A stretch of 64,000 nt of DNA from Spirochaetota bacterium (GTDB lineage: Bacteria; Spirochaetota; Spirochaetia; Treponematales; UBA12059): NCBI GenBank assembly GCA_022703505.1, contig JAKLDN010000001.1:407389-471388 (forward strand), read 5' to 3'. A program made the translations under genes and the position numbers. The notes beneath the pieces are model-generated. The model did not search any database. It was not told where the DNA came from and worked only from the letters and a program-made list of their open reading frames with translations. Of this stretch, positions 6,770 to 63,914 are shown one piece after another; the first letter of the stretch is position 1; every line of letters begins with the position of its first letter.

Positions 6770-6782
6770 GGGGACAGAGCTC
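6770..6782 (+). repeat. GGGGACAGAGCTC dispersed repeat, exact copy
   Basis: Exact 13-bp match lying between the likely promoter (6813-6818) and the likely start (6745) of the STAS gene. Confidence 0.85.
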
Positions 6783-21743: not shown

Positions 21744-23008
21744 GGTTCCCGAGCACCCGGGGAGGCTGCGAGCCGGCCTCCGCCTCCGAGGCCCTGCGGA
21801 CGGGGCTGGCCCCGGACGGGGGCCTCTTCGTCCCCGAACTCCTACCGGCTCTGTCCCCCGCGGCCCTGGACCCGGCCCTCCCCTACCCCGAACGGGCCCG
21901 GGAAGTCCTGGCCCCCTTCTTCGAAGGCGACGAGCTGGAACCGGACCTGCCGGAGCTCTGCCGGGAGGCCTTCGATTTCCCCGTGCCCCTGACCCGGCTC
22001 TCGGACCGGGTGCGGATCCTGGAGCTCTTCCACGGCCCCACTGCGGCCTTCAAGGACTTCGGGGCCTGCTTCCTGGCCCGCGCCCTGGAGCGCCTCCAGT
22101 CCGGGGAGAAAACTCCCCTGACCATCCTCGTGGCCACCTCCGGGGACACCGGGGGGGCCGTCGCCGCGGCCTTCCACGGCCGGACCGGGATCTCCGTCCG
22201 GGTCCTCTTCCCGGAAGACGGCGTTTCGGAACGCCAGAGGAAACAGCTTACCTGCTGGGACGGCAACGTCGCCTCCTACGCCGTGCGGGGAACCTTCGAC
22301 GACTGTCAGCGGGTGGTCAAGGAAGCCTTCCGCTCCCCGGAGATCTCCCGCCGCTTCCGCCTATCCTCGGCCAACAGCATCAACCTGGGCCGCCTTTTGC
22401 CCCAGACCGTCTACTACGTGCACGCCTCGGCCCTCTTCCTGGCCGAGACCGGGGAGAAACCCGCGCTCGTGATTCCCAGCGGGAACGTGGGCAACGCCGT
22501 GGGCGCCTACTGGGCCCGGGCCATGGGGGCCCCGATCGCACGGATCGCCCTGGCCGTCAACGCCAACCGCGTCCTGCCGGATTTCCTGACCGAGGGGATC
22601 TACCGGCCCCGCCCCAGCGTCCGGACTCTGGCCAACGCCATGGACGTGGGGGACCCGAGTAACCTGGAACGCCTGCGCTTCCTCTTCCCCGAGCGGGAGA
22701 CCCTGGAGCGGGAGGTTTCCGCCCGGAGCGTGACGGACGGGGAGATCCGGGATACCATCCGGCGGGTGTTCGAGGGTTCCGGCCTCGTGCTCTGTCCCCA
22801 CACCGCCTGCGCGGAATACGTCCGTGAGCGCCGCATGCCGGAAGCCCCCTCCATCGTCGTGGCCACCGCGCATCCGGCCAAATTCGAGACCGTCGTGGAG
22901 CCCCTGATCGGGCAGGCCGTCCCGGTGCCCCCCGCCCTGGCGGCCCTCCTGGACGCCCCGAGCCGGCACGAGACCATCGAGCCGAGGCTCGAGGAACTGC
23001 TCGGGTAG
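21740..23008 (+). CDS. thrC: Threonine synthase
   Basis: 422 residues. The PLP-binding lysine lies in FHGPTAAFKDFG near 105, with ATSGDTGGAVAAAF near 138 and LCPHTACA near 355. It converts O-phosphohomoserine to threonine. GTG start at 21740 overlaps the thrB stop (GTGA), so the pair is coupled. A near match of the dispersed 13-bp word at 22787-22799 falls in a conserved protein segment and is probably coincidence. The stop codon TAG is shared with the left end of a shortened MITE copy. Confidence 0.96.
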   Translation: MRFPSTRGGCEPASASEALRTGLAPDGGLFVPELLPALSPAALDPALPYPERAREVLAPFFEGDELEPDLPELCREAFDFPVPLTRLSDRVRILELFHGPTAAFKDFGACFLARALERLQSGEKTPLTILVATSGDTGGAVAAAFHGRTGISVRVLFPEDGVSERQRKQLTCWDGNVASYAVRGTFDDCQRVVKEAFRSPEISRRFRLSSANSINLGRLLPQTVYYVHASALFLAETGEKPALVIPSGNVGNAVGAYWARAMGAPIARIALAVNANRVLPDFLTEGIYRPRPSVRTLANAMDVGDPSNLERLRFLFPERETLEREVSARSVTDGEIRDTIRRVFEGSGLVLCPHTACAEYVRERRMPEAPSIVVATAHPAKFETVVEPLIGQAVPVPPALAALLDAPSRHETIEPRLEELLG

Positions 23009-30360: not shown

Positions 30361-31920
30361 TCACCGTCGGATCTCCTTGACGGTCTTCAGGTCCGCCTTG
30401 TTCAGCAGGATGAGGCCTCCCCCCGCCCCGGCGACCACGAGTCCCTCGGGGACGGACCTCAGGAAGGTGAAGGGGCTGACCGCGGCCTCGGACTTCATCT
30501 TGAGCTCCAAGGTCGCGGGATCGAATAGCCCGAGGACCCACTTCCCGCCGTCGTTAGCCACCGCCAGGATGCCGGCACCCTCCTTCCAGACCCCCGTCTC
30601 GGGGTGGACGTCCACGGTCCCGGTGACCTTGGCGGAGAGAGTCTCCAGGTCCAGGAGCACGAGGCGAACGGCCCCGGAGCCCTCGGCCCGGCCGGCCACG
30701 GCTACGAAGGCTCCCCCGATGTCCAGGAGGCTGTCCGCCCGGAGGGTGTTGATCTCCCCGGTCTTCAGGTATTTCCCGCCGGCCAGGTCCACCAGGGCCA
30801 GCCGGGCGTAGGGGCGGTTCGGGTCCACCAAGTCCAAGAGGACCGAGCCCCGCGGAGCGGCCTCGGCCTTGGCCGCGACCTCCTTGGCTATCTCCGCCTT
30901 CTGGTCTTCCGCCACGGCCTTGCGGTCCTCGGCGATCTCCGCCTCCTTGGCGGCCACCGCGGCCTCCTCCTTGGTGGTCTCCTCCTTGGCCGCGGCGACG
31001 GCGGCTTCCTTTTCGGCCGCGGCCTTCTCCTGGGCCGCGACCTCCGCCTCCCGGCGGGTAAGCTCGGCCTCCTGCTCGGGGCCCTGGGCGGAAGCTCTGT
31101 CCCTCTCCAACTCCGCCCGGGCCGCCTCGGCCCTCGCCGTTTCCTCGGCTGCGGCTTTTTCCTGCTCCGCGATCCGGGCCTTGTCCTCCTCGAGCCGTGC
31201 CTTGTCCTGCTCGACCTCCCGTTCCTTGAGGTCCACCATCTCCCGCCGTTCCGGGAGAGCCGCGGTACCGGACTCCTCCTTGAGGCTCTCCACCACGGAC
31301 TTGTCCGTGATGGGCCCCGTGTCCACCCGGCCGGGAGTCCCGGCCCGAGCGGTGATCGGAAGGACGATGCGGCTGCGTCCGGCCCACTCGTCCCAGCGGA
31401 CCGAGAGTCCGGCGTTCTCGGCCGTCAGGTGGGTCAGGACCGCGGGTTTGTAGGCCTTGCCGAAATAGGCCAGGTCGCCCCGGTACACGGCGTTGTACAC
31501 CGTGAGGAAGGTGGCAAGGAGGAAGCCGTCCGACCGGGAGTAGCCGTAGGCTTCCTCCAGGTAGGCCCCCAGGATGTGCCGGAGATTCCGGATGTGGTCC
31601 ACCCCGGCGTCGCGTCCCAGGATGATGATGTCCGCGTCCAGGCCCGAGGGCGCCTGGGGATCCCGCACCCGGATGACCGCGTACCGGGTCTCGCTTCCCG
31701 CCCGAGTCGCCCCGGCCCGTACGGCCCGGCCGAGGGCGGCCCCCAGGCCCCGGATCTCGTCCAAAGAATCGATTCGGGCGTGGGGTCCCACGTAGTTGAT
31801 GAACTCGATGGTCCTTCCGCCCACGGAGCGGAGCTCGTCCTCCGCCACGGTCTGGGCGGAAAGGATCGCCCCGGCCGTCAGGAAGGCGAGGAGGGCCGGG
31901 AGGGCGAGGTATTTTTTCAC
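30361..31920 (-). CDS. P83/100 family protein
   Basis: 519 residues with a cleavable signal peptide (LLAFLTAGAILSA). The N-terminal domain (about 25-200, with IEFINYVGPHARIDSLDEI and RNLRHILGAYLEEAYGY) matches the spirochaetal P83/100 antigen family of Borrelia and Treponema. The middle (about 225-385) is a long alanine-, glutamate- and lysine-rich coiled coil. The C-terminus (about 390-519) looks like a partial beta-propeller. Its role is unknown; it is periplasmic or surface-associated. GTG start at 31920 has TAGGAGGAATC. It follows the PQQ/HEAT gene by 12 nt, so the two form an operon. This gene is the best taxonomic marker in the window. Confidence 0.85.
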   Translation of the reverse strand: MKKYLALPALLAFLTAGAILSAQTVAEDELRSVGGRTIEFINYVGPHARIDSLDEIRGLGAALGRAVRAGATRAGSETRYAVIRVRDPQAPSGLDADIIILGRDAGVDHIRNLRHILGAYLEEAYGYSRSDGFLLATFLTVYNAVYRGDLAYFGKAYKPAVLTHLTAENAGLSVRWDEWAGRSRIVLPITARAGTPGRVDTGPITDKSVVESLKEESGTAALPERREMVDLKEREVEQDKARLEEDKARIAEQEKAAAEETARAEAARAELERDRASAQGPEQEAELTRREAEVAAQEKAAAEKEAAVAAAKEETTKEEAAVAAKEAEIAEDRKAVAEDQKAEIAKEVAAKAEAAPRGSVLLDLVDPNRPYARLALVDLAGGKYLKTGEINTLRADSLLDIGGAFVAVAGRAEGSGAVRLVLLDLETLSAKVTGTVDVHPETGVWKEGAGILAVANDGGKWVLGLFDPATLELKMKSEAAVSPFTFLRSVPEGLVVAGAGGGLILLNKADLKTVKEIRR

Positions 31921-31932
31921 GATTCCTCCTAT

Positions 31933-33681
31933 TCAACGCGCAGGTTCGGAGAGGCGGCGCAGGGCCGCCAGGGCCCGGGACCGCACCGCGGATCCGTAGG
32001 GTTTGTCCGCCAGCCTCAGGACCGCCCGGACTCCTCCGGGATCGGACAACTCCCCCAGGGCGCGGTAGATCCCCTCCACCGCGTCGATCGTGGCCAGGGC
32101 GCCGGGTTCGTCCAGGAAGAACTCCCGATCCGCCGCCCCCTGGAAGGCTCGGAGCGCCTCCCCCGTCAGGTCCAGGCCGATGATCCCGATTGCCCGGGCC
32201 GCGGAGGCCCGCACCGCGGGCTCGGGATCCCGGAGGTAGGCCTCCGTCAGGACCGGAACCGCCCGGGGGGAACCCAACATGCCCAGTATATCGCAGGCCA
32301 GGGCCCGGGGAAGGGCGCCCGACGGCCGCGGTCCCCGGGGAGCCGCACCTCCGTACACGGAAGCCTCACGAGCCCCGTAGCCCAGGGCGATCGCGGAGCA
32401 GAGAAGCAGAGCGTCCCCCTCCTCCGCTCCAATACTAGCGGATCCCAGGGATTTTTCAATACGCCGGAGCTCTCGAAGCGCCGCGTCGTCCCCGAATCCC
32501 GGATTCCAGAAGATCTCCTCGTTCGCCCGGGCACGGGCGGCCGCGAAGTCCACGTAGCCCGGTGCCGGCCGTGCGGGTTCGCCCAGAGGCCCCTCGAAGC
32601 GGTAGGCGTAGAGGATCCAGTCCTCCCCGGCGGAAAGTACGATGCCCGAGGAGGTGACCGCGGGCATACGTGGAGCATGGCGGAGGGACAGAGCTCGATA
32701 GACTTGTCCGTCCTTGGCCAGGCTGGCGGCTCCCCGGGGTCCCAGGACCAGGACCCGCTCCGGGAAGACCCGGATGTCTTGGGCGTCTAAAATACCCGTG
32801 GACGTCGTGTCGCTTACGGTACCGCCCTCCCGTACCCGGACTACGCTCCCCCCGGCAAGCAGGAGCCAAGCTTCAGCTCTGTCCCCCGCCGCGGCCACGA
32901 CCGGAGCGGCCAGGCGGACTCGGTAGGTCTCCTGTCCCGCACCGTCCCGTACCGATACGGCCCCGTTCCGGTAAGCCAGCACGAACCCCTCCCCGATACC
33001 GCACAAAGCCGAGGGGGGCTCGGAGACGGGGACAGAGCTCGAGGTTCCATCGGGGACAGAGCTCAGTAGAGTCCCGTCCTCGGCATACTCCCGGATGCTC
33101 CCGTCCGCCAGTGCCAGGGTGACCCGGGTCTTTCCGGAGGGAGTGAAGCGGACGGAGGGTCCCGCCGCTATCGGGGCCGCATGTTCCACGGACCACAGGA
33201 GCCTTCCCGAAGCGGACCATGCCAGAAGGCGGGAAGCCGCGGCGGCGAAGAAGCGGCCGTCCGCCCCGAAGGCCGGGGCCCGCACCACCGGGACCCCCGG
33301 CCGGACTCGCCAGACTTCCAGTCCAGCCCGATTCACCATGACCAGGGAGCCGTCCGCGGCTGGCAGAAGGGCCCGGCCGAAGGGATCCGGGGCTATCCAT
33401 GCCGGGCTCCCGTCCCTCCAGGCCCTTCGCCCCACGGCGCGGCCCGAGTCGTCCAGAATATACAGGGTGCGATCCTCGGAGACGATCCAGACCCTGCCCG
33501 CCTCGGCCACGGGACCCGCGGCGGCGGCGCCCGCCAGGGTGAAGCGGAAGGCCAGGATGTCCTGGACCGGGGACTGAGCGTTCGAGGGAACGGCAAGAAT
33601 CGCGGCGGCCGCGAAAAGGGCAATCGGATATCGGGTACGCCCGCGGACCCGACGCGGCTCAGTCCCAGCGAAGGCGGACAT
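31933..33681 (-). CDS. Secreted PQQ-type propeller and HEAT-repeat protein
   Basis: 582 residues. A signal peptide (ALFAAAAILAVPSNA) is followed by repeated WD/PQQ-like blades (about 45-390, for example GRVWIVSEDRTLYILDDSGRAVG) and then HEAT-like helices (about 470-582, AVPVLTEAYLRDPEPAVRASAARAIG). It probably serves as a periplasmic scaffold. It overlaps the upstream methyltransferase by 23 bp and precedes P83/100. Between residues 200 and 225 the sequence LLSSVPDGTSSSVPVSEP contains SSVP twice, both encoded by exact copies of the 13-bp repeat; GDRAEAW further on is encoded by a 12/13 copy. These repeats have been tolerated inside a reading frame. Confidence 0.75.
   Translation of the reverse strand: MSAFAGTEPRRVRGRTRYPIALFAAAAILAVPSNAQSPVQDILAFRFTLAGAAAAGPVAEAGRVWIVSEDRTLYILDDSGRAVGRRAWRDGSPAWIAPDPFGRALLPAADGSLVMVNRAGLEVWRVRPGVPVVRAPAFGADGRFFAAAASRLLAWSASGRLLWSVEHAAPIAAGPSVRFTPSGKTRVTLALADGSIREYAEDGTLLSSVPDGTSSSVPVSEPPSALCGIGEGFVLAYRNGAVSVRDGAGQETYRVRLAAPVVAAAGDRAEAWLLLAGGSVVRVREGGTVSDTTSTGILDAQDIRVFPERVLVLGPRGAASLAKDGQVYRALSLRHAPRMPAVTSSGIVLSAGEDWILYAYRFEGPLGEPARPAPGYVDFAAARARANEEIFWNPGFGDDAALRELRRIEKSLGSASIGAEEGDALLLCSAIALGYGAREASVYGGAAPRGPRPSGALPRALACDILGMLGSPRAVPVLTEAYLRDPEPAVRASAARAIGIIGLDLTGEALRAFQGAADREFFLDEPGALATIDAVEGIYRALGELSDPGGVRAVLRLADKPYGSAVRSRALAALRRLSEPAR
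32875..32886 (-). repeat. GGGGACAGAGCTC dispersed repeat, 12 of 13
   Basis: Copy with the last base changed, inside the PQQ/HEAT gene in sense orientation, encoding GDRA. Confidence 0.7.
33028..33064 (+). repeat. Two exact GGGGACAGAGCTC copies, 24 bp apart
   Basis: 33028-33040 and 33052-33064, antisense to the PQQ/HEAT gene, each encoding SSVP in the same reading frame (24 bp is eight codons). Confidence 0.85.
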
Positions 33682-34966: not shown

Positions 34967-36589
34967 ATGAACACCGGAGATGTTCTTCTAGTCGGACGAT
35001 TCTACAGCCTGGCCCGGGAGGGCGAGCGGTTCTCCGCCCTGCGGGTGGGGACGGACGGCCGCATATCCCAAGCCTACCCGGACGGTGCCCCCCTGCCGCC
35101 GGACATCCCCCGCCGCCCCCTTCCGTCCGGTACGACGGCCTGTGTCCCCGCCTTCGTGGACAGCCACGCCCACTTCCTGACCAAGGCGGCCATGGGTGCC
35201 CTGGTGAAGACTCTGTCCCGATTGGAGGATGGCCGGGTCCTCCCGGACTGCCTGGACGGGGTCCGGACTCTCTTGGCCGAAGCCTCGGAGGAGCGGCCCC
35301 GGGGACCCGTCATCGGCTACGGCCTGGCGCCGGGGGTCCTCGCGGAGCGACGCCTTCCCACGGCCGCGGAATTGGACGCATGGCTGCCGGGACGGCCGGT
35401 CATCGTCCTTTCCTTCGACGGCCATTCCAGCTCCTACTCTACAGCGGCCCTCCGCATCCTGGGCCTGGAATCCCAGGCCCGGGACGGCGTCCTGTCCGGG
35501 GAAGCCCACGAGTTCAACATGGACCGTGTCATGACCTACGCTATGCGAGCTCTGTCCCCCGCCGCCCTGGCTAAAGGACTTTCCCGGGCGGTTCGGGAGG
35601 CGGCGGAAGCAGGACTTGCGGCGGTGGATTGCATGGAAGGTTTCGGGAACGAGCGCCGGGAGCCGGGCACGGAAATACTAGCTCGAATCGGCGGGCGTCT
35701 ACCCCTCCGGCTCCGGCTCTGGCTCCAGTACACCCGGCCTGAGCTTGTCGGCCGCTACGTCCCCAGGATGGCCCGGCCTCGGGTCGGAGGCTGTCTCCAC
35801 TGGGAGATGGACGGGTCCATCTCCTCTCGGAGCGCCGCGATGGACCGGCCCTACTTGGACCGGGACCACTCCGGCAGGCTCTATCGGAGCCCCGAAGAAG
35901 CCTACGCCCTGGCGAAGCCCTTCTATAACGCGGGCTACCAGATCTCCGCCCACGCCATCGGGCCCCGGGGGATCGAGTCCATCCTCTCGGCCTACGAAAA
36001 ACTTTCCGCGGGACTCGGGGACAGAGCTCGGGACCGGCGGCACCGGATCGACCACTTCGAGTTCCCCCGGCCGGATCAAGTGGAGCGAGCGGGCCGTCTG
36101 GGCCTGGTCCTACCCGTCCAGCCGGGCTTCGCCTGGATCGACGCCCGGTTCCATCGATCCTACCCCGAGGCCCTGGATGACCAGACCTTCGCCTCCTTCA
36201 CCCCCCTGAGGTCCCTACTCCAGGCGGGGGCCGTGCCCGCCCTTTCCTCGGACGCCCCGGTCCAGCCCTTCGACCCCTTCCTGCAGATCGCCGGAGCCGT
36301 AGAGCACCCCGTGGCTTCGGAATCTCTTCCCGTGTACGATGCCCTCCGGGCTTATTCTTGGGCTGGCGCCTACGGGGCATATGAGGAGGAGGACCGGGGC
36401 ACTCTGGAAGCAGGGAAGTACGCGGACTTTGCCCCTCTGGACCGGGATCCCTTCGAGACTCCAAAGGCGGAGCTGTACCGGATCCGTACCCTGGGGACCT
36501 GGATAGGAGGCCGGCCTCTGGAATCTCCCCCGGATAATCCGGCGGGCTTCGTGATGCGCGCCCTGACATCCCCAAGGAGGAAGATATGA
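34967..36589 (+). CDS. YtcJ-like amidohydrolase
   Basis: 540 residues, metal-dependent amidohydrolase of the YtcJ type. The metal motif DSHAHF near 64, GHSS near 148 and later histidines (SAHAIG near 330, RIDHFEF near 365) match the family. The C-terminal EDRGTLEAGKYADFAPLDRDPFE strand is also typical. The substrate is unknown; relatives cleave amides or cyclic imides. The ATG follows GAGGCGG. The next gene, an amino-acid permease, overlaps by 4 bp, suggesting that the substrate or product is brought in by it. Two exact copies of the 13-bp repeat lie in frame: one encodes ALSP (35547-35559), the other GDRA (36017-36029). Confidence 0.85.
   Translation: MNTGDVLLVGRFYSLAREGERFSALRVGTDGRISQAYPDGAPLPPDIPRRPLPSGTTACVPAFVDSHAHFLTKAAMGALVKTLSRLEDGRVLPDCLDGVRTLLAEASEERPRGPVIGYGLAPGVLAERRLPTAAELDAWLPGRPVIVLSFDGHSSSYSTAALRILGLESQARDGVLSGEAHEFNMDRVMTYAMRALSPAALAKGLSRAVREAAEAGLAAVDCMEGFGNERREPGTEILARIGGRLPLRLRLWLQYTRPELVGRYVPRMARPRVGGCLHWEMDGSISSRSAAMDRPYLDRDHSGRLYRSPEEAYALAKPFYNAGYQISAHAIGPRGIESILSAYEKLSAGLGDRARDRRHRIDHFEFPRPDQVERAGRLGLVLPVQPGFAWIDARFHRSYPEALDDQTFASFTPLRSLLQAGAVPALSSDAPVQPFDPFLQIAGAVEHPVASESLPVYDALRAYSWAGAYGAYEEEDRGTLEAGKYADFAPLDRDPFETPKAELYRIRTLGTWIGGRPLESPPDNPAGFVMRALTSPRRKI
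35547..35559 (-). repeat. GGGGACAGAGCTC dispersed repeat, exact copy
   Basis: Antisense inside the YtcJ-like gene, encoding ALSP in MRALSPAALAKG. Confidence 0.85.
36017..36029 (+). repeat. GGGGACAGAGCTC dispersed repeat, exact copy
   Basis: Sense orientation inside the YtcJ-like gene, encoding GDRA in LGDRARDRRHRID. Confidence 0.85.
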
Positions 36590-37781: not shown

Positions 37782-39059
37782 TCACTCGGTCTCGGAGACC
37801 TCCTGGGGGGCGGGACGGAATACCGCCTCCTCCACCCGGTTCGCCTCCACTTTCAAGACCGTGAACCGGCCCAGAGGGGTATGGGCCACGTCTCCTTCCA
37901 CGGGGATGCGGTCCAGGATCCAGGCCACGTAGCCCGCGACCGTCTGGATGTCCACGGTGCCCGGAGATTCCGTGCCGGTGACGTCCGCGACCAGGGACAG
38001 AGGTGCGTCCCCGGAAACCGTATAGGACCCGTCCGCCCTGCGCCGGAGGCGCTCCCTGGGCTCCTCGTCGCCGTCCTCATAGATCTCCCCGACGATCTCC
38101 TCGATCACGTCACGGATGGTCACGACCCCGGCCAAGCCCCCGTACTCGTCCAGCACCACGGCAAAGGATTCCTTGCGCCGCTTCAATAGGTCGAAGAGTT
38201 CGCCCAGGGGTTTTGTGGACATGACCAGGACAGGCTCGGCCATGATCTCCCGGATGGGGCGGTCCCGACGGCCGTGGACCACCTCGTCAAGTACCCGCTT
38301 CAGGGCTACCACGCCTACTATTTTCTCGGGATCCTCGTCATACACGGGGAACCGGGAATGGAGTTCGCCCACCGCCGCCGTCGCCGCCTCCTGGGCGGTG
38401 GTACGGCCGTCCAGGCTGAAGACGTCGATCCGGTGGGTCATCACGGCCTGCACGGTCATGGTCCCCATGCGGAAGATGTTCTTGACCATGGAGCTCTTAG
38501 CGAAGTCGATGACTCCCGCGCTCTCGGCCACCGCCAGCATCTGGGTCATAGTCTCCAGGGACATCTCGGTCTTGGAGGTCTTGCCGAAGATCCGGGTGAC
38601 CAGGGAACTCAGGAAGTTGATAGCCCCCACGGCGGGCCGCAGGAGGTAGGACAGGACCAGGATGAACCTAGCCGCGTGGACCGCGATGAACTCGTTGTGT
38701 GCGATGGCTAGGCGTTTGGGAGTGACCTCCCCGAAGATTAGGACCGCTAGGGTGATGACCCCCGTGACGGCTCCCAGAGCTCTGTCCCCCCAGCGCTCCA
38801 ACGTGTACTCCGTGGCCAGCACGGAGGCCAGGATGTTCACCACATTGTTTCCGATCAGGATCGTGGACAGGAAGACCTCGGGCTCCCGGGCCAGTTTCTC
38901 AACGATACGGCCCTGGCGGTACCGCTTTCGGAGGTTCTGGATCTGGAAGATCGAAAGGGAGGTGAAGGCCGTCTCGGAAGCGGAAAAGACGGCGGAAAAA
39001 ACCAAGCAAATGATGACACCGGCGAGGGAAGGACTCATCGCTCCGCTCCCGCGGGACAT
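37782..39059 (-). CDS. CNNM/CorC family transporter (HlyC/CorC, CBS domains)
   Basis: 425 residues. A DUF21 membrane domain (about 10-190; ASETAFTSLSIFQIQNL, EVTPKRLAIAHNE) is followed by a CBS pair (about 205-330) and a CorC/HlyC C-terminal domain (about 345-420). Such proteins are linked to Mg2+ or Co2+ export, and the CBS pair binds nucleotide. Two starts are possible: 39059 and an ATG seven codons later with a GGAG upstream. An exact 13-bp repeat (38777-38789, sense) encodes GDRA in ERWGDRALGAVTGV between helices. Confidence 0.88.
   Translation of the reverse strand: MSRGSGAMSPSLAGVIICLVFSAVFSASETAFTSLSIFQIQNLRKRYRQGRIVEKLAREPEVFLSTILIGNNVVNILASVLATEYTLERWGDRALGAVTGVITLAVLIFGEVTPKRLAIAHNEFIAVHAARFILVLSYLLRPAVGAINFLSSLVTRIFGKTSKTEMSLETMTQMLAVAESAGVIDFAKSSMVKNIFRMGTMTVQAVMTHRIDVFSLDGRTTAQEAATAAVGELHSRFPVYDEDPEKIVGVVALKRVLDEVVHGRRDRPIREIMAEPVLVMSTKPLGELFDLLKRRKESFAVVLDEYGGLAGVVTIRDVIEEIVGEIYEDGDEEPRERLRRRADGSYTVSGDAPLSLVADVTGTESPGTVDIQTVAGYVAWILDRIPVEGDVAHTPLGRFTVLKVEANRVEEAVFRPAPQEVSETE
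38777..38789 (-). repeat. GGGGACAGAGCTC dispersed repeat, exact copy
   Basis: Sense orientation inside the CorC/HlyC-type gene, encoding GDRA. Confidence 0.85.
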
Positions 39060-41033: not shown

Positions 41034-41558
41034 CTAGTCATCGCCCAAGAGTAGAAGCCTATGCCCTGGGAAAGCCAGTGCGGCATACTCCCCGAGCTCA
41101 TCCACGATCCCCCGTATCCCATGACGGTGATGCCACAACCCTCCATGAAGCCAACTCTCCGCTGTTTCCACCCGGAGGGCTTCCACCGGATTGTTGTCTA
41201 TATACTCGAATGCTCTCGCAAAGTGTTGAAAGCTGGCCATGATCCTCGAGAAAAAGCGACATCCCCAGACATGTCCCGTGTACCCGTGTATCCGGTTGAA
41301 CGCCATCGCGAACACACTGAGGATCCACTGCATGATCCGGGACAAGGACTCCCGTTCCCCGGGCCGGATCATGAGGTGGATATGGTTCCCCATCACGCAG
41401 AAATTTTCGATTCGAAACCGGTACCTAGTTCTAGCCCGAGCAAGGACACGCAGAAAGAGGTCCTTCAGACCTTTAGCGTCTAGAATCATCTCTCCTCGGT
41501 TCGCCCTGGCCGTCACATGGTATACCGCCCCTGCTTGCAGCTCCCTTGGCTTTCTCAT
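41034..41558 (-). CDS. REP-associated tyrosine transposase (RAYT, Y1_Tnp)
   Basis: About 174 residues. It has the IS200/IS605-like single-strand transposase fold: QAGAVYHVTARANRGEMIL at the start, the metal-binding pair HIH in FCVMGNHIHLMIRP near 58-66, the catalytic tyrosine in FARAFEYIDNNPVEAL near 123, and a short C-terminal tail. RAYTs are domesticated or self-limited transposases tied to short dispersed REP sequences. Three exact 13-bp copies spaced exactly 31 bp lie 57-131 bp upstream of its start, and the same word is scattered through the window. It is therefore the likely source or user of that repeat. Start ATG at 41558; a GTG two codons upstream is possible. Confidence 0.92.
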   Translation of the reverse strand: MRKPRELQAGAVYHVTARANRGEMILDAKGLKDLFLRVLARARTRYRFRIENFCVMGNHIHLMIRPGERESLSRIMQWILSVFAMAFNRIHGYTGHVWGCRFFSRIMASFQHFARAFEYIDNNPVEALRVETAESWLHGGLWHHRHGIRGIVDELGEYAALAFPGHRLLLLGDD

Positions 41559-41614
41559 GCCCACAATACGCTACTAGTTTGCGAGTTCACTTGCGTTTCG
41601 CCGCGTTTCCGTAT

Positions 41615-41689
41615 GAGCTCTGTCCCCGGAAGGGTCTCTTGTATCGAGCTCTGTCCCCGAGGCAATCGTTTACGTTGAGCTCTGTCCCC
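41615..41689 (-). repeat. Three exact GGGGACAGAGCTC copies at a 31-bp period
   Basis: Copies at 41615-41627, 41646-41658 and 41677-41689, all in the same direction, with unrelated spacers. They lie between the RAYT start and the end of the MFS gene. The rightmost copy supplies the last codons of that MFS gene. Confidence 0.92.
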
Positions 41690-42962
41690 GCATCTCCCGG
41701 GCGGTTTGTACCATACGCTCATTTAGGATCCCGATATCCTTGGGGAAGATCCGCGCTGTAAAGACGAGAACGATCCCACAGATCACCCAGAAGGAGGCGC
41801 TGATCGTCAGGGCACCGGAAAGCCCCACCGCCACGGAAAGCATCCCCGCCACCCATCGACCCAGGCCTGTCCCCAGGGAATCGGTCAGGTTGAAGATAGA
41901 GAAGATAGGTCCCCGGTCTTCGGGGGGATTCACGTCCAGAAGCATGGTCCGCATATTGGGGCCCGTCATTGCGGCGAAGAAGGCGGCCAGGAAGCCCGCG
42001 GCGGACAGGAGGGGGATGGAACCCCGGAGCGTGACCACTCCCAGGGTGCCCAGACAGCCCAGGAAGGTCGTTACTCCGCAGAAGAGAGGCAGGTCTTTTG
42101 CAGAACGCCGGAACACGAGCTCTCCGAGCTTTCCGCCCGCAAGGTTTCCTGCGACCATCCCTGCCCCGAAGACCATGTAAACTGCGGTTGCCTGCCCCAC
42201 GGATAACCCCTTCGAGGTTTCCAAAAACTTGTTGAGGAAGAAGAAGGCCCCCCAGGGGATGGTCCCCGCGATGCCCTGGATGAAGAGGTAGACGTTCGTA
42301 GGCACCTTGCCTAGGCGGGCATAATCCTGGACCCGGATATGCTTGGGGTAGAGGATTCCGGCTTCCACGAGCTCCCGGGTGGCTTCCTCGCTGGCCGCGG
42401 CCCGAGGTTCAGGCACCAGGAACCAGAAAGCTAAGAGCAGGGGAATATTCGGAACCGCAGCCAGGAAGAAGGGCAGACGCCAGCCCGCGGCCTGGCCTAC
42501 AAAGCCGCCCAGGACCGGCCCGGCTATGGCCCCGAGGCCGAAGGAGGTGGTCAGGATAGCCGAAGCCATGGGCCTCTCCTTCTCGTTATAGATGTCCCCC
42601 AGAATGGAGAAAACCAGAGGGAACGCGGCCCCCACCCCGATTCCCGTCAGTATCCGCAGGGCGAAGAAGACTTCCCAAGATGGGGACAGAGCTGTCAAGG
42701 CGCAGGGTATCTCCCCCAGGGCCACAGAGAACACGAACAGCTTCTTCCGGCTGGCCTTGTCCGCGAAGTAGCCCCAGAACAGGGACACAACGGCTCCGAC
42801 GACCGTGAACAGGGCCATCATGGCGCCCACGGCGGAGTCGTCCACCCCGAACTCGGCTTCGATGGTGACCAGCATGGGGGCCATGACCTGGGTATCCGCG
42901 TTCAGGGCCACCATGGACGCGGCCATAAGGACGAGTAGGAGAGTCTTTTGGGTCTTGGTCAT
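41670..42962 (-). CDS. MFS transporter
   Basis: 430 residues, twelve likely helices. MFS signature GYFADKASRKKLF lies between helices 2 and 3, and a long central loop (about 190-230) separates the halves. The start MTKTQKTLLLVLMAASMVALNADTQVMAPML suits the sugar/anion branch, but the substrate is unknown. ATG at 42962 follows AGAAAGGAGCG. The C-terminus is odd: its last residues RGQSST and the stop codon are read through the third 13-bp repeat copy (41677-41689), so the native tail seems to have been replaced or extended. A 12/13 copy at 42682-42694 encodes ALSP. Confidence 0.88.
   Translation of the reverse strand: MTKTQKTLLLVLMAASMVALNADTQVMAPMLVTIEAEFGVDDSAVGAMMALFTVVGAVVSLFWGYFADKASRKKLFVFSVALGEIPCALTALSPSWEVFFALRILTGIGVGAAFPLVFSILGDIYNEKERPMASAILTTSFGLGAIAGPVLGGFVGQAAGWRLPFFLAAVPNIPLLLAFWFLVPEPRAAASEEATRELVEAGILYPKHIRVQDYARLGKVPTNVYLFIQGIAGTIPWGAFFFLNKFLETSKGLSVGQATAVYMVFGAGMVAGNLAGGKLGELVFRRSAKDLPLFCGVTTFLGCLGTLGVVTLRGSIPLLSAAGFLAAFFAAMTGPNMRTMLLDVNPPEDRGPIFSIFNLTDSLGTGLGRWVAGMLSVAVGLSGALTISASFWVICGIVLVFTARIFPKDIGILNERMVQTAREMRGQSST
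42682..42694 (+). repeat. GGGGACAGAGCTC dispersed repeat, 12 of 13
   Basis: GGGGACAGAGCTG inside the MFS gene, antisense, encoding ALSP in LTALSPSWEV. Confidence 0.7.
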
Positions 42963-44232: not shown

Positions 44233-44293
44233 GGGGACAGAGCTTCCCGGGGGCAAAACATCCTGCGGACAGAACTCCCCGGGGACAGAGCTT
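44233..44293 (+). repeat. GGGGACAGAGCTY cluster upstream of tdh
   Basis: Two copies of GGGGACAGAGCTT (44233-44245, 44281-44293; 12 of 13) and a weaker one (44265-44277, GCGGACAGAACTC). All point the same way and lie between the divergent AI-2E-type gene and tdh. Confidence 0.75.
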
Positions 44294-44389: not shown

Positions 44390-45412
44390 ATGAAAGCCCT
44401 CGTGAAGAAATACTCGAAGCCCGGACTCTGGATGGAGGACGTCCCCATGCCCAAGGTGGGGGACAACGACCTGTTGATCAAGGTCAAGAAAACGGCGATC
44501 TGCGGAACCGATGTCCATATATGGAAATGGGACGCCTGGGCCCAGAAGACCATCGCGATCGGACAAACGGTGGGCCACGAGTTCGTGGGCGAGATCGTTG
44601 AAATGGGCCGCGCGGTGGAGGGCTACAAAGTCGGCGAGCGGGTGTCCGCGGAGGGCCACATCGTCTGCGGGGTCTGCCGGGCTTGCCGTGCCGGGAAGCA
44701 CCACCTCTGTCCGAACACCCGCGGGATAGGCGTCAACCGGGACGGGTGCTTCGCGGAGTACGTGTCCGTACCGGCCTACAACGCCCTCCACATCCACAGC
44801 TCTGTCCCCGACGAGATCGCCTCCATCTTCGACCCCTTCGGGAACGCCACCCACACGGCCCTGTCCTTCGACATGGTCGGGGAGGACGTCCTCATCACCG
44901 GAGCGGGCCCGATCGGCTGCATGGCCGCCGCCATCGCCCGGCACGTGGGTGCCCGGAACGTGGTGGTCACGGATGTAAACGACTACCGTCTGGACCTGGC
45001 CCGGAAGCTTGGAGCCAGCCGGACCGTCAACGTAGCCCGGGAACGCCTGATGGACGTCCAGAAAGAGTTGGGGATGGTAGGCGGCTTCGACGTGGGTTTG
45101 GAGATGTCCGGATCCCCCGCGGCCTTCGAGGAGATGCTGGCGAACATGTACAACGGCGGCCGCATCGCCCTCCTGGGTCTCCTGCCGAGCGGCACGGGGA
45201 TAGACTGGGAGAAGGTCATCTTCAAGGGGCTGTTCATCAAGGGGATCTACGGCCGGGAAATGTTCGAGACCTGGTACAAGATGCAGGCTATGGTCCTGTC
45301 CGGCCTGGACATCAGCCCGGTCATAACCCATCGGTACTCCTTCGGCGACTTCGAGAAGGGCTTCGCGGACATGGTATCCGGACAGTCCGGCAAGGTGGTC
45401 CTCTCGTTCTAG
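44390..45412 (+). CDS. tdh: L-threonine 3-dehydrogenase
   Basis: About 340 residues, zinc-dependent medium-chain dehydrogenase very close to E. coli Tdh over its whole length: [18 protein letters not shown] near 34, VGHEFVGE near 60, a structural-zinc cysteine cluster ([15 protein letters not shown]), [20 protein letters not shown] near 163 and [19 protein letters not shown] near 278. It oxidises threonine to 2-amino-3-oxobutyrate with NAD+. AAGGAGACGAC precedes the ATG, and TATACT at 44315-44320 is a likely -10. The peptide SSVP at 44797-44809 is encoded by a 12/13 repeat copy but does not lengthen the protein relative to E. coli Tdh. No kbl ligase gene is adjacent. Confidence 0.97.
44797..44809 (-). 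repeat. GGGGACAGAGCTC dispersed repeat, 12 of 13
   Basis: Last base changed; antisense within tdh. The protein keeps its family length here, so this is replacement or chance, not insertion. Confidence 0.6.
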
Positions 45413-45475: not shown

Positions 45476-47032
45476 GTGAGCGAACCCCAGAAGAAGCGGC
45501 CCGGCTCCGGGCCCCGGAAGAATGACCCCCGGTCCGACCGCAGGCCCTCCTCCCCCGGTACCCGTCCCTTCCGGGGCGGCCCCGAACGGGAATCCCCGTC
45601 CCCGGGGCGGCCCGGTCCGCGCCGCCCCGGACCCCCGAGAGGGGCGCCATTCCGGAGCGGGGACAGAGCTCCCGGCACGCGGGAGCCGAACCGCCCCGAA
45701 GCCCCCGTCCATGCCCGCCACGAGGACGGAGACCCGATAACCGCATACCTGGCGTCCCAGGAAGGCGTACGGACCGGGGGCGGGATGAAAGCCCGCTTCG
45801 TGGCCCCCTTCGGGGCGCCCAAGAACGCCGGATCCGACCTCGAAGCCTTCCTGGCCGCGGTCTCCGAGACCTTCCCGGTCCAGGAATCCCGCAGACGGTA
45901 CCTCAAGGAGGACGTGCTAACCCTCTGGCGAGACCTCACCAGCGAGCGGAGCCTCCGCTTCGCGGACTACCTCGGGAAACCTTCCGCCCTGGCCGCCTAC
46001 GTGCGGTACTTCATGGCCTGGAACGTGGTGCGCCTGGTTCCCGTCCTGGCCGGCCTGCCCCTCGATCCTCCCGAAGGCGCGACGATCCTGGACATCGGCT
46101 CCGGCCCTCTCACCCTGCCCATCGCCCTGTGGATAGCCCGTCCGGACCTCCGGGACCGGGGCCTCCGCATCCTCTGCACGGACCGGGTCCGGAAGCCTAT
46201 GGAATCCGGCGCGGCCCTCCTGGACGCCCTCCGGCTCAAGACCGGGGGGCCCGTCCTGGGGGACGGAGCCTGGAGGGTGGAGACCCGGCACGCGGTCTTC
46301 CCGGACACAGGCGGTCCCGGCAAGGCGGACGTCGTGTGCTCCGCGAACGCCTTCACCGAGTTCTTCTGGAGCGCATCCGCCCGCCGGGACAGCAACTTGG
46401 GAGAACGAGCCGCGGTTCTGCTTTCCGACCTGGCCGCCGCCTGCAAGCCCGGCGGCCTCCTGTTCATCGCCGAGCCCGGGGAACCCCGGTCCGGGGCCAT
46501 GCTCTCCGCGCTCCGGGAGGCGGCCCTCCTCTCGGGACTGCGGGTCGAGTCCCCCTGCCCCCACGCCCGGGCCTGCCCCATGCCGGGGGCCTTCGGCGGC
46601 CTGGGAGACCGGGTGGACGGCAAGGCCCGCTCGGCTCTGCCCCCGGTCCACTCGCCGAAGTGGCGCCCCAAGATGCCCTGGTGCCACTTCCCGGTGCCCC
46701 TCGACACGGCTCCTTCAGCCCTGACGCGGTTCTCCGAGGAGGTGGGGCTGCCCAAGGAGCGGCTGACCGTGTCGTGGTTGGCCCTCCGCAAGCCCGCCGT
46801 CGGGGACAGAGCTCCGGAGGCGGAGCAGAAGGGTCCCCTCCGCACCCGCCTGGTCTCGGACCCCATCCGCCTCCCCGGAGGCTGGGACGGCCGCTACGCC
46901 TGTTCCGACCTGGGCTATACGCTGGTCGTGGGCGCCGCGGCCCGGGAAGGGCCCGGAAGTCTGCTCGATCTCGACCGGCCCGCCCGGATATCCCGGGACG
47001 AGAAGTCCGGGGCGGTTATAGCGGGCCCTTGA
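45476..47032 (+). CDS. Rsm22/METTL17-like ribosomal small-subunit methyltransferase
   Basis: About 518 residues. The first 100 are low-complexity (proline, arginine, glycine) and hold an exact 13-bp repeat. A class I methyltransferase follows, with ATILDIGSGPLTLPIALW near 205. The distinctive cysteine set CPHARACP near 362 and WCHFPVPLD near 402, plus a late YACSDLGYT, matches Rsm22/METTL17, which acts in small-subunit assembly and binds an iron-sulfur cluster in mitochondria. GTG at 45476 is 6 nt after CATACT, so leaderless. A second exact repeat encodes GDRA (46802-46814). The promoter of the downstream tRNA pair overlaps its stop codon. Confidence 0.85.
   Translation: MSEPQKKRPGSGPRKNDPRSDRRPSSPGTRPFRGGPERESPSPGRPGPRRPGPPRGAPFRSGDRAPGTREPNRPEAPVHARHEDGDPITAYLASQEGVRTGGGMKARFVAPFGAPKNAGSDLEAFLAAVSETFPVQESRRRYLKEDVLTLWRDLTSERSLRFADYLGKPSALAAYVRYFMAWNVVRLVPVLAGLPLDPPEGATILDIGSGPLTLPIALWIARPDLRDRGLRILCTDRVRKPMESGAALLDALRLKTGGPVLGDGAWRVETRHAVFPDTGGPGKADVVCSANAFTEFFWSASARRDSNLGERAAVLLSDLAAACKPGGLLFIAEPGEPRSGAMLSALREAALLSGLRVESPCPHARACPMPGAFGGLGDRVDGKARSALPPVHSPKWRPKMPWCHFPVPLDTAPSALTRFSEEVGLPKERLTVSWLALRKPAVGDRAPEAEQKGPLRTRLVSDPIRLPGGWDGRYACSDLGYTLVVGAAAREGPGSLLDLDRPARISRDEKSGAVIAGP
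45659..45671 (+). repeat. GGGGACAGAGCTC dispersed repeat, exact copy
   Basis: Sense orientation in the disordered N-terminal region of the Rsm22-like gene, encoding GDRA. Confidence 0.85.
46802..46814 (+). repeat. GGGGACAGAGCTC dispersed repeat, exact copy
   Basis: Sense orientation in the Rsm22-like gene, encoding GDRA in AVGDRAPEAEQKG, at a loop after the methyltransferase core. Confidence 0.85.
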
Positions 47033-50625: not shown

Positions 50626-50638
50626 GGGGACAGAGCTC
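50626..50638 (+). repeat. GGGGACAGAGCTC dispersed repeat, exact copy
   Basis: Intergenic, immediately upstream of the rlmN promoter. Confidence 0.85.
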
Positions 50639-56401: not shown

Positions 56402-56453
56402 GGGGACAGAGCTCGAGTTCGGGGACAGAGCTCGAGTTCGGGGGACAGAGCTC
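56402..56453 (+). repeat. Three exact GGGGACAGAGCTC copies between patatin and iorA
   Basis: 56402-56414, 56421-56433 and 56441-56453, all in the same direction, with 19- and 20-bp spacing. The sequence GAGTTC also recurs between them. Confidence 0.92.
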
Positions 56454-56528: not shown

Positions 56529-58421
56529 ATGAAGGATCTCGGCGAGACCCTGCTCCGAAAGGAACCCTTCTCGGAGATAGTCATCGGAAACACCGCGATC
56601 GTGCGCGCCCTGGTCGAATCGGGGCTGCGGTCCGTGACGGCCTACCCGGGCTCCCCGACCCCGGAGATCGCGGACGCCATCGCGGCCATCCCCGCGGACC
56701 GGCGCCCCTTCCGCTTCGAGTTCTCCGTCAACGAGAAAGTCGCCCTGGAGGTGGCCTTCGGATCCGCGCTTGCGGGCCGCCCGTCCGCGGTCTTCTTCAA
56801 GAGCGTGGGACTGAACGTGGCGGCGGACTCCTTCGTCCAGCTGCCCCTCCTGGACATACCCGGGGGCCTCGTGGTCATCCTGGGGGACGACCCCGGGGCC
56901 AACTCGAGCCAGAACGAGCAGGACAACCGCCACTACGCCCGGATGAGCTACATGCCCCTCCTGGAGCCGGCCTCGGCGCAGGAGGCCTATGACATGTTCA
57001 AGACCGCCGCCCGGCTGGCCGCGCGCCACCGCACCGCGGTCATCCTCCGCCTGACCACCCACGTCTGCCATGCCAAGGAAAAGGTGGACTTCGAGGCCCT
57101 GCCTCCCGCCTTCCCCCGGCCCGCCTGGGCCTTCGACCCGGAACGGGAGAACTACATCCCCCTGGCGGCCACGGTCTTTCCGTTGAAGAGGCGGGCCCTG
57201 GAGCGACTTGCGGCGATCGGTCGGGACCCCGAGGCCCTGGGAACGAACTTCGTGGAAGGCTCCGGATCCCGGCGGGGCGTGATCACCGCGGGTACCGCCT
57301 GGCTCTCCCTCCGGGACGCCCTGGAGGAGACGAAACCCGGATCGGAGCGGCCGGATGTCCTCAAGCTGGGACTGGTCCACCCCCTGCCGCGGGACGCCGT
57401 GCTGGCCTTCCTCCGTGCCCGCGAGGAAGTGAAGGTCCTGGAGGAGCTGGACCCGGTGCTGGAGACCGAGATCAAGGCCCTGGCCTACGACGAGGGCCTA
57501 TCGACCCGGATCCTGGGCAAGCGGGGCGTCGAGGACCTCATGGGCGAGTGCGTCCCGGCCAAGGTCCGGGACATCCTTTCGGGCACCTGGCCGGACCTAT
57601 TCGACGCGCCTCGGCCCGCCCCCCTACCCGCTTCGGCGGCCCCCCGCCCCCCCCAGATGTGCCCGGGCTGCGGGCACCGCTCGGCTTTTTACGCGATCAA
57701 GCGAGCTCTGTCCCCCGGGGACGTCACGGTGGCGGACATCGGCTGCCACACCCTGGGCTACCTCCCGCCCTACCGCATGGGCGGAGTCCTTCTGTCCATG
57801 GGCCACTCCACCTCCACCGCCTCGGGGCTCTCGATCTTCCGGGAGGGCCGCCGGGTGGTCTGCTTCCTGGGGGACTCCACCTTCTTCCACGCCGGGATGC
57901 CCGGGATCGTCAACGCCGTGTACAACGGCCACGAAGTCCTCCTGGTGGTGATGGAAAACGGGACCACCGCCATGACGGGCCACCAGGACCACCCCGGCAC
58001 CGGCAGGTCCTTCAACGGCCCGGCGCCCAAGCTCTCGGTGCGGGCGGCCCTGGAAGGGCTGGGGGTGAAAAACATCCGCGAGGTGGACGCCTACCGCCAG
58101 GCCGAGCTGACTGCGCTGGTCCGGGAAGCCCTGGCCGAACCGGGCTTCAAGGTGATCATCGCCCGGCACCCCTGCATGTTGAAGCTCACCCGGGAGGCCC
58201 GGCGGCGGGCCGGGGCCGCATGGAAGGTCCGGCAAGTCCGGGTCGATCCGGACACCTGCGTGAAGAACCACGAGTGCATCGAGCGCTTCGCCTGCCCGAG
58301 CTTCCAGGCCCGAGAGGGCGGGGCCGTGGAGGTCAGCCGGGACCTCTGCATCGGGGACGGCTCCTGCCGGCAGACCTGCCCCGCCGGGGCCCTGGTCCAG
58401 GACAAGGAGGAAGGGCGATGA
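56529..58421 (+). CDS. iorA: Indolepyruvate ferredoxin oxidoreductase, alpha subunit
   Basis: About 630 residues. The pyrimidine-binding half (about 20-380, AYPGSPTPEIADA near 40) and the TPP-binding half (about 390-560, CPGCGHRSAFYAIKRALSPGD, then IGCHTLGYLPPY and GDSTFFHAG) precede a ferredoxin-type tail with cysteine clusters (CVKNHECIERFAC and CIGDGSCRQTC). It oxidises aryl pyruvates from aromatic amino acids to aryl-acetyl-CoA, passing electrons to ferredoxin. ATG at 56529 follows GGGAGGGGAGG, and GATACT near 56487 may be its -10. It is coupled to iorB (ATGA). An exact repeat (57703-57715) encodes ALSP at a loop where related proteins have a similar length. Confidence 0.95.
   Translation: MKDLGETLLRKEPFSEIVIGNTAIVRALVESGLRSVTAYPGSPTPEIADAIAAIPADRRPFRFEFSVNEKVALEVAFGSALAGRPSAVFFKSVGLNVAADSFVQLPLLDIPGGLVVILGDDPGANSSQNEQDNRHYARMSYMPLLEPASAQEAYDMFKTAARLAARHRTAVILRLTTHVCHAKEKVDFEALPPAFPRPAWAFDPERENYIPLAATVFPLKRRALERLAAIGRDPEALGTNFVEGSGSRRGVITAGTAWLSLRDALEETKPGSERPDVLKLGLVHPLPRDAVLAFLRAREEVKVLEELDPVLETEIKALAYDEGLSTRILGKRGVEDLMGECVPAKVRDILSGTWPDLFDAPRPAPLPASAAPRPPQMCPGCGHRSAFYAIKRALSPGDVTVADIGCHTLGYLPPYRMGGVLLSMGHSTSTASGLSIFREGRRVVCFLGDSTFFHAGMPGIVNAVYNGHEVLLVVMENGTTAMTGHQDHPGTGRSFNGPAPKLSVRAALEGLGVKNIREVDAYRQAELTALVREALAEPGFKVIIARHPCMLKLTREARRRAGAAWKVRQVRVDPDTCVKNHECIERFACPSFQAREGGAVEVSRDLCIGDGSCRQTCPAGALVQDKEEGR
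57703..57715 (-). repeat. GGGGACAGAGCTC dispersed repeat, exact copy
   Basis: Antisense inside iorA, encoding ALSP in IKRALSPGDV. Confidence 0.8.
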
Positions 58422-62561: not shown

Positions 62562-63914
62562 CTAGAACGAGAGTCCCGTCGTCTCGACGGAAAGACCCAG
62601 CGTGCGCCGGGGACCGGGGAACCCGTACTCGCTCCCCGCCCTTCCGTAGCGCTCCCCGTAGGATAGCGCAATCCGCAGGTTCTTGAAACCCGAGTACGAG
62701 GCGGACGCGACGACCTTGCCCGACCGGTCGTCCAGGCTGCCCAGCCAGAGCAGGGAGAGCCCCGCGTCGCTCCGGGCTATGTCCGAGAGCGCGAGGCTCG
62801 CGGCCCCGTAGTTCCTTCCCCGGAGGTAGAGGTCCTCCGGGCCGATCTGCCCCGCGGCGGCCAGGGCGGCCACCCCCGCCGCGTAGGTCGTGAAGAGGTC
62901 CGGATCGGCGTAGCCCGCCCCGTTCCGGAGGTACTGGGCCGAGGCCGCGAGGTTCCAGGCCTCCGTCTCGTCGCTCCAGGTCCAGGAGAAGCCCAGGGTG
63001 CCCTGGAAGGCCGGTTCGGCCTCCCGGCTCTCCGCGGAGACCCCCAGGGGCGCCCCCCCGTCCTCGACCACGTAGGTCCGTCTTCCTCCGCCCCGGACGA
63101 CCGCCTCGGCGTAGAGGTCCAGACCGAGGGCGGGCCCGGTGGCTGTGGCCGCGACGGCCCAGGGCCGGTCCGGCCGCCAGACCCCGGCCAGGGACAGCTC
63201 TGTCCCCCCGACAAGCCCCTCGGCCTTGGCCGCGATCCCGACGGTGCCGTCCTCCTCCATGCCCTGGAGCAGGGCGTAGGCGTAGAGGTTCGAGGTGCCC
63301 CGGACGGCGTGGAGCCGGGCCGCCACGGGGCCGGCCAGCTCCTCGTCCGGGTGTTCCGGGTCGATCCGCTCCAGGTTGATCACGTTCGCCGGGCTCCAGA
63401 ACCGCCCGACCCCCCAGTTGACCGTCTGCTTGCCCGCCCGGAGCCGGAGCCCGGGTTGGAGGGCGAGGTCCGCGAAGAGTTCCCGCAGGGCCCAGTCCCC
63501 GGCGTCCTCGAAGGGGTAGGCCGCCCGGGCCTTGGCGAGGACGCGGACCTCCTCGCTCGGCCGGGCGTCCAGGAAGAAAGTGCCCGAGAGGTCGAGCTCC
63601 GCGCCGGGAGCCCCGGCCCACTCGCCCCGGGCCAGGGCCTCGGCGTCCGCCGTGCCCGCGGCCTCGAGGCGGAAGGTCCCGCCCCATCGGACCTTCTGGA
63701 ACTCCGGAAGGCCGGCTCCTCCGGAATCCGCGTCCCCGGCCTCGGGCGCCTCGGTCACCAGGTCGTCCCCGGCCCCGAAGAACTCCTCGTCCGCCGGGGA
63801 CGGAGCTGCCGGGATTTCCTGTTCCGGGGACGGAGCCGCCTGGGCGGAGGCGGTCCGGACCGCCAGGGCCAGGAGCAGGGCGGCCAGGGCCCGCCCGAAT
63901 CGCGTCGTGTCCAT
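62562..63914 (-). CDS. Outer-membrane beta-barrel protein
   Basis: 450 residues with a signal peptide ([17 protein letters not shown]). An acidic and proline-rich linker (about 27-65) leads to alternating beta strands (for example [37 protein letters not shown]) and ends in TTGLSF. A terminal phenylalanine is typical of proteins inserted by the BAM machine. The motif around [10 protein letters not shown] resembles barrels found next to LolA-like and RND exporter genes, and a LolA-like gene ends just upstream. GDRA-type words are absent, but a 12/13 repeat copy lies at 63195-63207. Confidence 0.75.
63195..63207 (-). repeat. GGGGACAGAGCTC dispersed repeat, 12 of 13
   Basis: Copy with the last base changed, in the barrel gene. 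With flanking bases it forms GGGACAGCTCTGTCCC, a near-perfect palindrome. Confidence 0.55.

Follow-up and report, generated by a model that had tools for sequence, protein, structure and literature searches.

The usual view of RAYTs (REP-associated tyrosine transposases) is one of mobile hairpins spreading through the genome. Characterised RAYTs act on GTAG-tagged hairpins, gene-specific repeat families within one genome are already known for REPs, and the host role of RAYTs and the spread of their repeats have been a question since RAYTs were named in 2010. In the REP/RAYT systems of Escherichia, Pseudomonas and Stenotrophomonas (REPtrons; TnpA-REP), each rayt gene has one type of repeat, the repeats adjoin the gene, and word and protein are specific for one another. 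Accumulation of REPs near rayt, within regions no larger than 200 kb, was described for three marine gammaproteobacteria and Thauera (Nunvar et al. 2010, PMC2817692), and a 2021 study again reported it for Marinomonas and suggested a recent arrival (PMC8266576). The repeats of the Marinomonas MWYL1 REPtrons Ma and Mb and of the Thauera RAYT are palindromic REPs, GTAG-tagged in Marinomonas, and were explained as recent arrivals multiplied nearby (PMC2817692, PMC8266576).

Other described systems resemble the present one in part. Beside the genes of TnpA-Y1 subclass 2.6 and class 3 lie atypical REP-like sequences with weak structure and no GT[AG]G (Quentin et al. 2018, PMC6006769); the portions of that report considered here deal with copies in the host genome and mention neither cis clouds nor a position in coding DNA nor conservation, and the comparison is with this description. 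DNA uptake sequences (DUS of Neisseria, USS of Haemophilus) are words of about 10-12 nt inside and outside genes, with exact copies favoured over near-copies and gradual evolution by mutation with drive (PMC2397512, PMC1939737), and a model that combines mutation with biased transfer has been applied to their accumulation (PMC1939737). The IS200/IS605 transposons share the Y1 HUH transposase fold and have an upstream site on the strand of the gene.

We analysed a RAYT gene and its surroundings in a spirochaete genome of 3.66 Mb (G000); the window is the whole stretch of 64,000 nucleotides in which this gene lies (Table 1). The protein matches Y1_Tnp (Pfam PF01797) at 3.5e-12 and scores 75.1 bits against NF047646 (REP-associated tyrosine transposase), just below the curated cut-off of 80, and all 20 relatives match NF047646 (E < 0.001, best 4.5e-27). 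HxH, Y119 and N123 are invariant in the alignment of these 20 relatives. An AlphaFold2 model (pLDDT 93) has as its top PDB match 4er8, a RAYT in complex with a REP hairpin, and the first-pass annotation of the protein as a RAYT is thus borne out at the level of a RAYT relative. Five Y1_Tnp genes were found in the whole genome. Four of them lie in syntenic, alignable surroundings in the congener G001, which argues for vertical inheritance. This syntenic, apparently vertical inheritance would set the spirochaete RAYT apart from IS200/IS605 transposons, as does the lack of a consistent paired end downstream.

Table 1 Features of the window. Amino acids in brackets are the readings of words in genes; G001 and G002 are congeners.
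Feature	Position	Strand	Remarks
RAYT gene (Y1 HUH family)	41034..41558	-	174 aa, ATG at 41558
RAYT residues	HxH 59-61, tyrosine 119, N123-P124	-	from alignment
Word copy 1	41616..41627	-	intergenic, 58 nt before ATG; kept in G001
Word copy 2	41647..41658	-	intergenic; G001 counterpart is GGGACAGATCT
Word copy 3	41678..41689	-	3' end of MFS-transporter gene (41670-42962), reads RGQSS
Cloud word	6771..6781	+	intergenic, 35 kb from RAYT
Cloud word	31093..31103	-	in gene (RDRA)
Cloud word	32685..32695	+	in gene (RALSL); one-letter neighbour GGGACAGATCT in G001; absent in G002
Cloud word	32875..32885	-	in gene (GDRA); kept in G001
Two cloud words, direct repeat	33029..33063	+	in gene (SSVP, SSVP); kept in G001
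Cloud word	35548..35558	-	in gene (RALSP); kept in G001
Cloud word	36018..36028	+	in gene (GDRAR); G001 without word, no gap, 5 differences; G002 without word
Cloud word	38778..38788	-	in gene (GDRAL); kept in G001
Cloud word	42683..42693	+	in MFS gene, antisense orientation; kept in G001
Two cloud words	44234..44292	+	intergenic; versus G001, indels around one-letter variants
Cloud word	44798..44808	-	in threonine/sorbitol dehydrogenase-like gene (44390-45412); gained by 4 in-place substitutions
Cloud word	45660..45670	+	in gene (GDRAP); kept in G001
Cloud word	46803..46813	+	in gene (GDRAP); kept in G001
Cloud word	50627..50637	+	in gene (RALSP, antisense)
Three cloud words, spacing 19-20 bp	56403..56452	+	in gene (GTEL, GDRA, GTEL); densest cluster of the window
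Cloud word	57704..57714	-	in the gene holding the 56403..56452 cluster (RALSP)
Cloud word	63196..63206	-	in gene (GTELS)

Three exact copies of GGGGACAGAGCT precede the RAYT on its own strand with a period of exactly 31 bp, as the first-pass annotation had reported, and lie 58-131 nt before the ATG. The array is not purely intergenic, since copy 3 falls in the final codons of the gene for the MFS transporter, nor is it the densest cluster of the window, as had been claimed; the three copies at 56402-56452 are packed more tightly, 19 and 20 bp apart. At other RAYT loci the spacing of neighbouring words ranges from 14 to 118 bp with a median of 39; none of the 41 spacings is exactly 31 bp, and no helical phase among them was significant. 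The orthologous array of G001 has spacings of 38 and 31 bp. Upstream of RAYT genes it is the orientation and distance of the word that are conserved, not the spacing: up to 250 nt upstream of spirochaete RAYT genes we counted 103 sense and 11 antisense words, and from the nearest sense word to the RAYT start the median distance is 74 nt. Farther from the gene no orientation bias was seen (sense/antisense 128/140 upstream and 124/113 downstream). While most loci have the upstream sense word, a downstream partner is inconsistent, being absent from 44 of 67 loci, and downstream words show no orientation bias.

The copies next to the gene belong to a much larger cloud. The window contains 24 exact copies of the 11-mer GGGACAGAGCT where 0.04 are expected, and 33 matches to the 12-mer with at most one mismatch where 0.72 are expected. 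The variant GGGGACAGAGCC is frequent in this cloud (4733, 21847, 25974, 26332, 37134 and 47992). Genome-wide there are 98 copies of GGGACAGAGCT, and 93 of them are no farther than 75 kb from one of the five RAYT genes (20 expected): 32 within 5 kb, 54 within 10 kb and 73 within 20 kb. Word density falls from 0.5-0.76 per kb within 5 kb of a RAYT to 0.19 at 10-20 kb, 0.02 at 40-80 kb and 0.0018 elsewhere, where the remaining five copies are at about chance level. The reversed word, taken as a control, has no copy in the genome.

Confinement is also seen in other spirochaetes. In Breznakiella homolactica, whose complete 4.65-Mb chromosome carries one Y1_Tnp gene, 10 of 12 word copies lie within 9 kb of that gene, and an assembly or binning artefact behind the concentration of words is thereby ruled out. 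In G026 the words are found almost solely on its two RAYT contigs. As to relatives that have the repeat and no RAYT, named by the first-pass annotation as the case against a pairing of the two, the congener G002 (49 copies, no RAYT match) falls away as an example, being a fragmented draft with contigs that stop at the RAYT positions; RAYT loss in this genome was rejected on the same ground. G006 and G014, with 5-6 copies and no RAYT match, may be such relatives. The G002 draft contigs C215, C258, C272, C321 and C91 stop where a RAYT locus or a word array lies, so that short-read assemblies may under-report RAYT genes.

We surveyed 80 spirochaete RAYT loci and judged enrichment on those of at least 8 kb. 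A GGGAC-type word is the most enriched 11-mer in most of these loci, and 57 loci are above the shuffle level. The word is private to the gene, as in G009, where five RAYT genes have as enriched words GGTACCAGGTGTC; GGTGCCAGGTTTC, together with GGTGCCAGGTATC; GGGTCTGACCCT, based on three copies only; GGGGACAGACCC; and AGGGACACTCTT. In a search of the whole G009 genome, among the places listed, GGTACCAGGTGT occurs almost only on contig C45 and GGTGCCAGGTTT only on C82, and the other RAYT genes have words different from those on these two contigs. The word just upstream of a RAYT predicts the word of its cloud: away from the gene, the own upstream word occurs at 2.64 per 10 kb against 0.037 for words at least two letters different. 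Protein distance and word distance are correlated (Mantel r 0.48, 0 of 2000 permutations), a figure from which shared ancestry is not removed, and by this measure word type appears to track RAYT sequence. With all five RAYT genes of the genome, 57 spirochaete loci and the covariation of word type with protein, the earlier proposal that RAYT and word belong together is supported. Among all aligned loci no convincing case was found in which words at orthologous sites were swapped when the RAYT word changed.

Some loci deserve mention in their own right. Two RAYT genes of G009 (L101 and L102 on C63) lie about 140 kb apart with the words GGGGACAGACCC and AGGGACACTCTT and offer a natural test of cis range. 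Around one RAYT of G010 (C16, L106/L107) the word types GGGGACAGACCCC and GGGGACGGACCCC coexist, perhaps a word in transition. Contig C1 of the same genome (L103/L104) carries a second repeat unrelated to the word, GAGGAACTGGCCGAA, with 14 copies in 40 kb. It also holds head-to-tail word arrays of up to about 14 copies at 21609-21813 and 102555-102805, with periods of 13 bp (no spacer) and 16 bp, suggesting a unit of 13 nt and local expansion in tandem.

No hairpin was predicted for the word of the window: GGGGACAGAGCTC folds at 0 kcal/mol, in line with the short, unstructured motif of the first-pass annotation, and a canonical REP hairpin was rejected for it. In place of the GTAG/GTGG tetranucleotide at the foot of REP hairpins, the words start with GGGAC or variants of it. 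REPIN-like inverted pairs were rejected as well, because neighbours up to 300 bp apart mostly repeat in the same direction and at no fixed distance, and so was a larger conserved repeat unit, because conservation ends at the word. Some related RAYTs have palindromic words (GGTGTCTGACACC folds at -2.7 and GGGGACAGACCCC at -2.9 kcal/mol), and the words may descend from short REP-like hairpins. A literature search for the word sequences gave unrelated matches only.

Canonical REPs are extragenic. Here, 65 of 90 copies in the own genome (about 70%) lie within genes as predicted by a simple codon-usage caller, in all six frames, with xALS[LP] as the commonest reading. These words are conserved as DNA. 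Between G000 and G001, 38 of 54 words are identical, compared with 41 of 432 flanking 11-mers (Fisher 4e-22); the conserved footprint is sharp, with identity rising at position -1 and dropping after +10. At third codon positions, 88% are identical in words and 61% in flanks (p 7e-10). Three further lineage pairs gave 7/10 words kept against 9/80 flanks, 4/7 against 4/56 and 3/7 against 1/56; most of the genomes compared are draft metagenome assemblies.

How do the words arise? At 169 separate sites that could be aligned over good flanks, 110 words were kept, 50 were substituted without a gap and 9 had some gap, and only one of these 9 was an indel of the whole word; such alignments could miss large insertions, at which the alignment would break, but not word-sized ones. 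Words private to one genome are likewise mostly faced by ungapped, substituted sequence in pairwise alignments. At the 36018 site the two congeners, both lacking the word, disagree with one another, and the C8:166243 site reflects either a loss in G001 or a gain common to G000 and G002. One clear case of a polarised multi-substitution gain was obtained, in the dehydrogenase gene. There, G001, G002 and several other family members have GAC TCC ATC CCC, or a close variant, against AGC TCT GTC CCC here. The word is thus due to four lineage-specific substitutions, in the sole 12-nt stretch of the gene with at least four, and its gain alters two codons (D to S and I to V). Under independent neutral mutation, completion of a word from a four-mismatch precursor would be expected some 0.0002-0.003 times over the entire cloud at a lineage divergence of about 4.6%. 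Since four neutral substitutions are very unlikely, either partial words are favoured too or a single multi-base event took place. Exact copies (73) outnumber one-mismatch copies (28), and copies with two mismatches stay at the background level, with controls that include three regions picked for holding a word. The final letter is the least constrained, accounting for 15 of the 28 one-mismatch copies.

Cis confinement, private words and covariation with the protein tie the word to the RAYT, while words that originate in place and are conserved as DNA cannot stem mainly from simple insertion. The reading that we consider probable is that the RAYT is a domesticated HUH nuclease and the word its cis-confined recognition site, arising in place and kept by selection or linkage drive. 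A vertically inherited HUH nuclease of this kind would act on single-stranded DNA and bind or cleave an 11-13-nt word (GGGGACAGAGCTC here) as its own recognition site, and each RAYT would maintain a cloud of its own word within roughly 5-40 kb on either side of the gene. New words would come mostly from base substitution of existing sequence, coding or not, until a match is reached, rather than from inserted DNA, and a completed word would then be conserved as DNA much like a DNA uptake sequence, yet only in rayt-linked DNA. The likeliest driver would be linkage, with word sites useful only near the rayt gene. Either the RAYT may work chiefly on DNA near its site of production, or tracts that carry rayt and bear words may be favoured in recombination or replication. 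The absence of a predicted hairpin in the window's word, unlike the GTAG-tagged hairpins of characterised RAYTs, counts against this explanation. We suggest more tentatively, and with doubt, that a domesticated HUH transposase marks its own neighbourhood letter by letter, coding DNA included, i.e., a gene-linked local sequence drive. We know of no earlier system of this kind in bacteria.

The main rival to selection or linkage drive is direct rewriting, in which the RAYT would paste or template its word into word-like single-stranded DNA near its gene as an equal-length replacement (short-patch conversion). Gapless replacement in place is what such an enzyme would leave behind, the cis gradient suits a cis-acting activity, and the clustered substitutions in the dehydrogenase gene, rarely expected from independent neutral steps, would follow directly. 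Non-shared sites, however, differ by 1 to 6 letters, largely as local divergence predicts, and a one-letter neighbour is present at 32685. To our knowledge no HUH enzyme replaces DNA length for length, which we also count against rewriting. Overall we regard it as unlikely, and the word is presumably maintained by selection or drive instead.

A classical REPtron, in which the RAYT copies REP-like words and inserts them near its gene, with the cloud as a recent arrival that has not yet spread, is the published reading for the REPs of Marinomonas and Thauera (PMC2817692, PMC8266576). The differences by indels between intergenic word arrays of different species would fit it. It is nevertheless improbable here, given that the whole word was inserted or deleted at just one aligned site, that words lie in frame within genes, that with four of the five RAYT genes syntenic in G001 the state is old and still confined, and that the pattern recurs at many spirochaete loci. 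Slightly less probable again are regulatory or structural sites bound by a different protein, in which case the RAYT would be one of the genes in a region under regulation. In most RAYT loci the sense word near -74 resembles an operator and the DNA-level conservation would be expected of such sites, but most copies sit in genes in all frames, orientation bias is lost away from the RAYT, separate RAYTs of one genome have different words, and word type varies together with RAYT sequence. Least credible of all is a promoter array of protein-binding sites phased with the helix at 31 bp, which the first-pass annotation had proposed from the three copies here and which the spacing survey and the G001 ortholog largely refute.

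Taken as a cis-confined recognition site of a domesticated nuclease, the word departs from the known systems in several ways. The REP/RAYT systems have the same protein family and fold, whereas the spirochaete words have no GTAG tag, no hairpin in the window's case and no inverted pair that flanks the gene consistently; they are cis-confined rather than genome-wide, lie mostly in genes and originate in place. In Marinomonas and Thauera the repeats are concentrated near rayt too, in regions up to about 200 kb; in spirochaetes the confinement is old, recurs phylum-wide and involves words conserved in coding DNA without insertions (compare PMC2817692, PMC8266576). DNA uptake sequences occur throughout the genome and are recognised by an uptake system, while the spirochaete word, with no such genome-wide distribution, is local, gene-specific and tied to an HUH nuclease. 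Relative to known REPs, it is new that each gene-specific family stays in the surroundings of its own gene. As far as the literature searched shows, it is also new that the rule holds across spirochaetes, that words lie in coding DNA, have a conserved footprint and originate in place, and that the confinement persists across species divergence.

Persistence of the confinement across species divergence argues against a recent arrival, and the published recent-arrival explanation of cis concentration is thereby weakened. What recurs in spirochaetes is a RAYT state in which the word is local, differs between the RAYTs of one cell, lies within genes, evolves by substitution and is strongly conserved as DNA. 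In the dehydrogenase, a protein has undergone amino-acid changes that were apparently imposed by a DNA word. The local gradient, the specific words and the complete genomes with a single RAYT make the question of RAYT function testable and give a handle on what these widespread proteins do.
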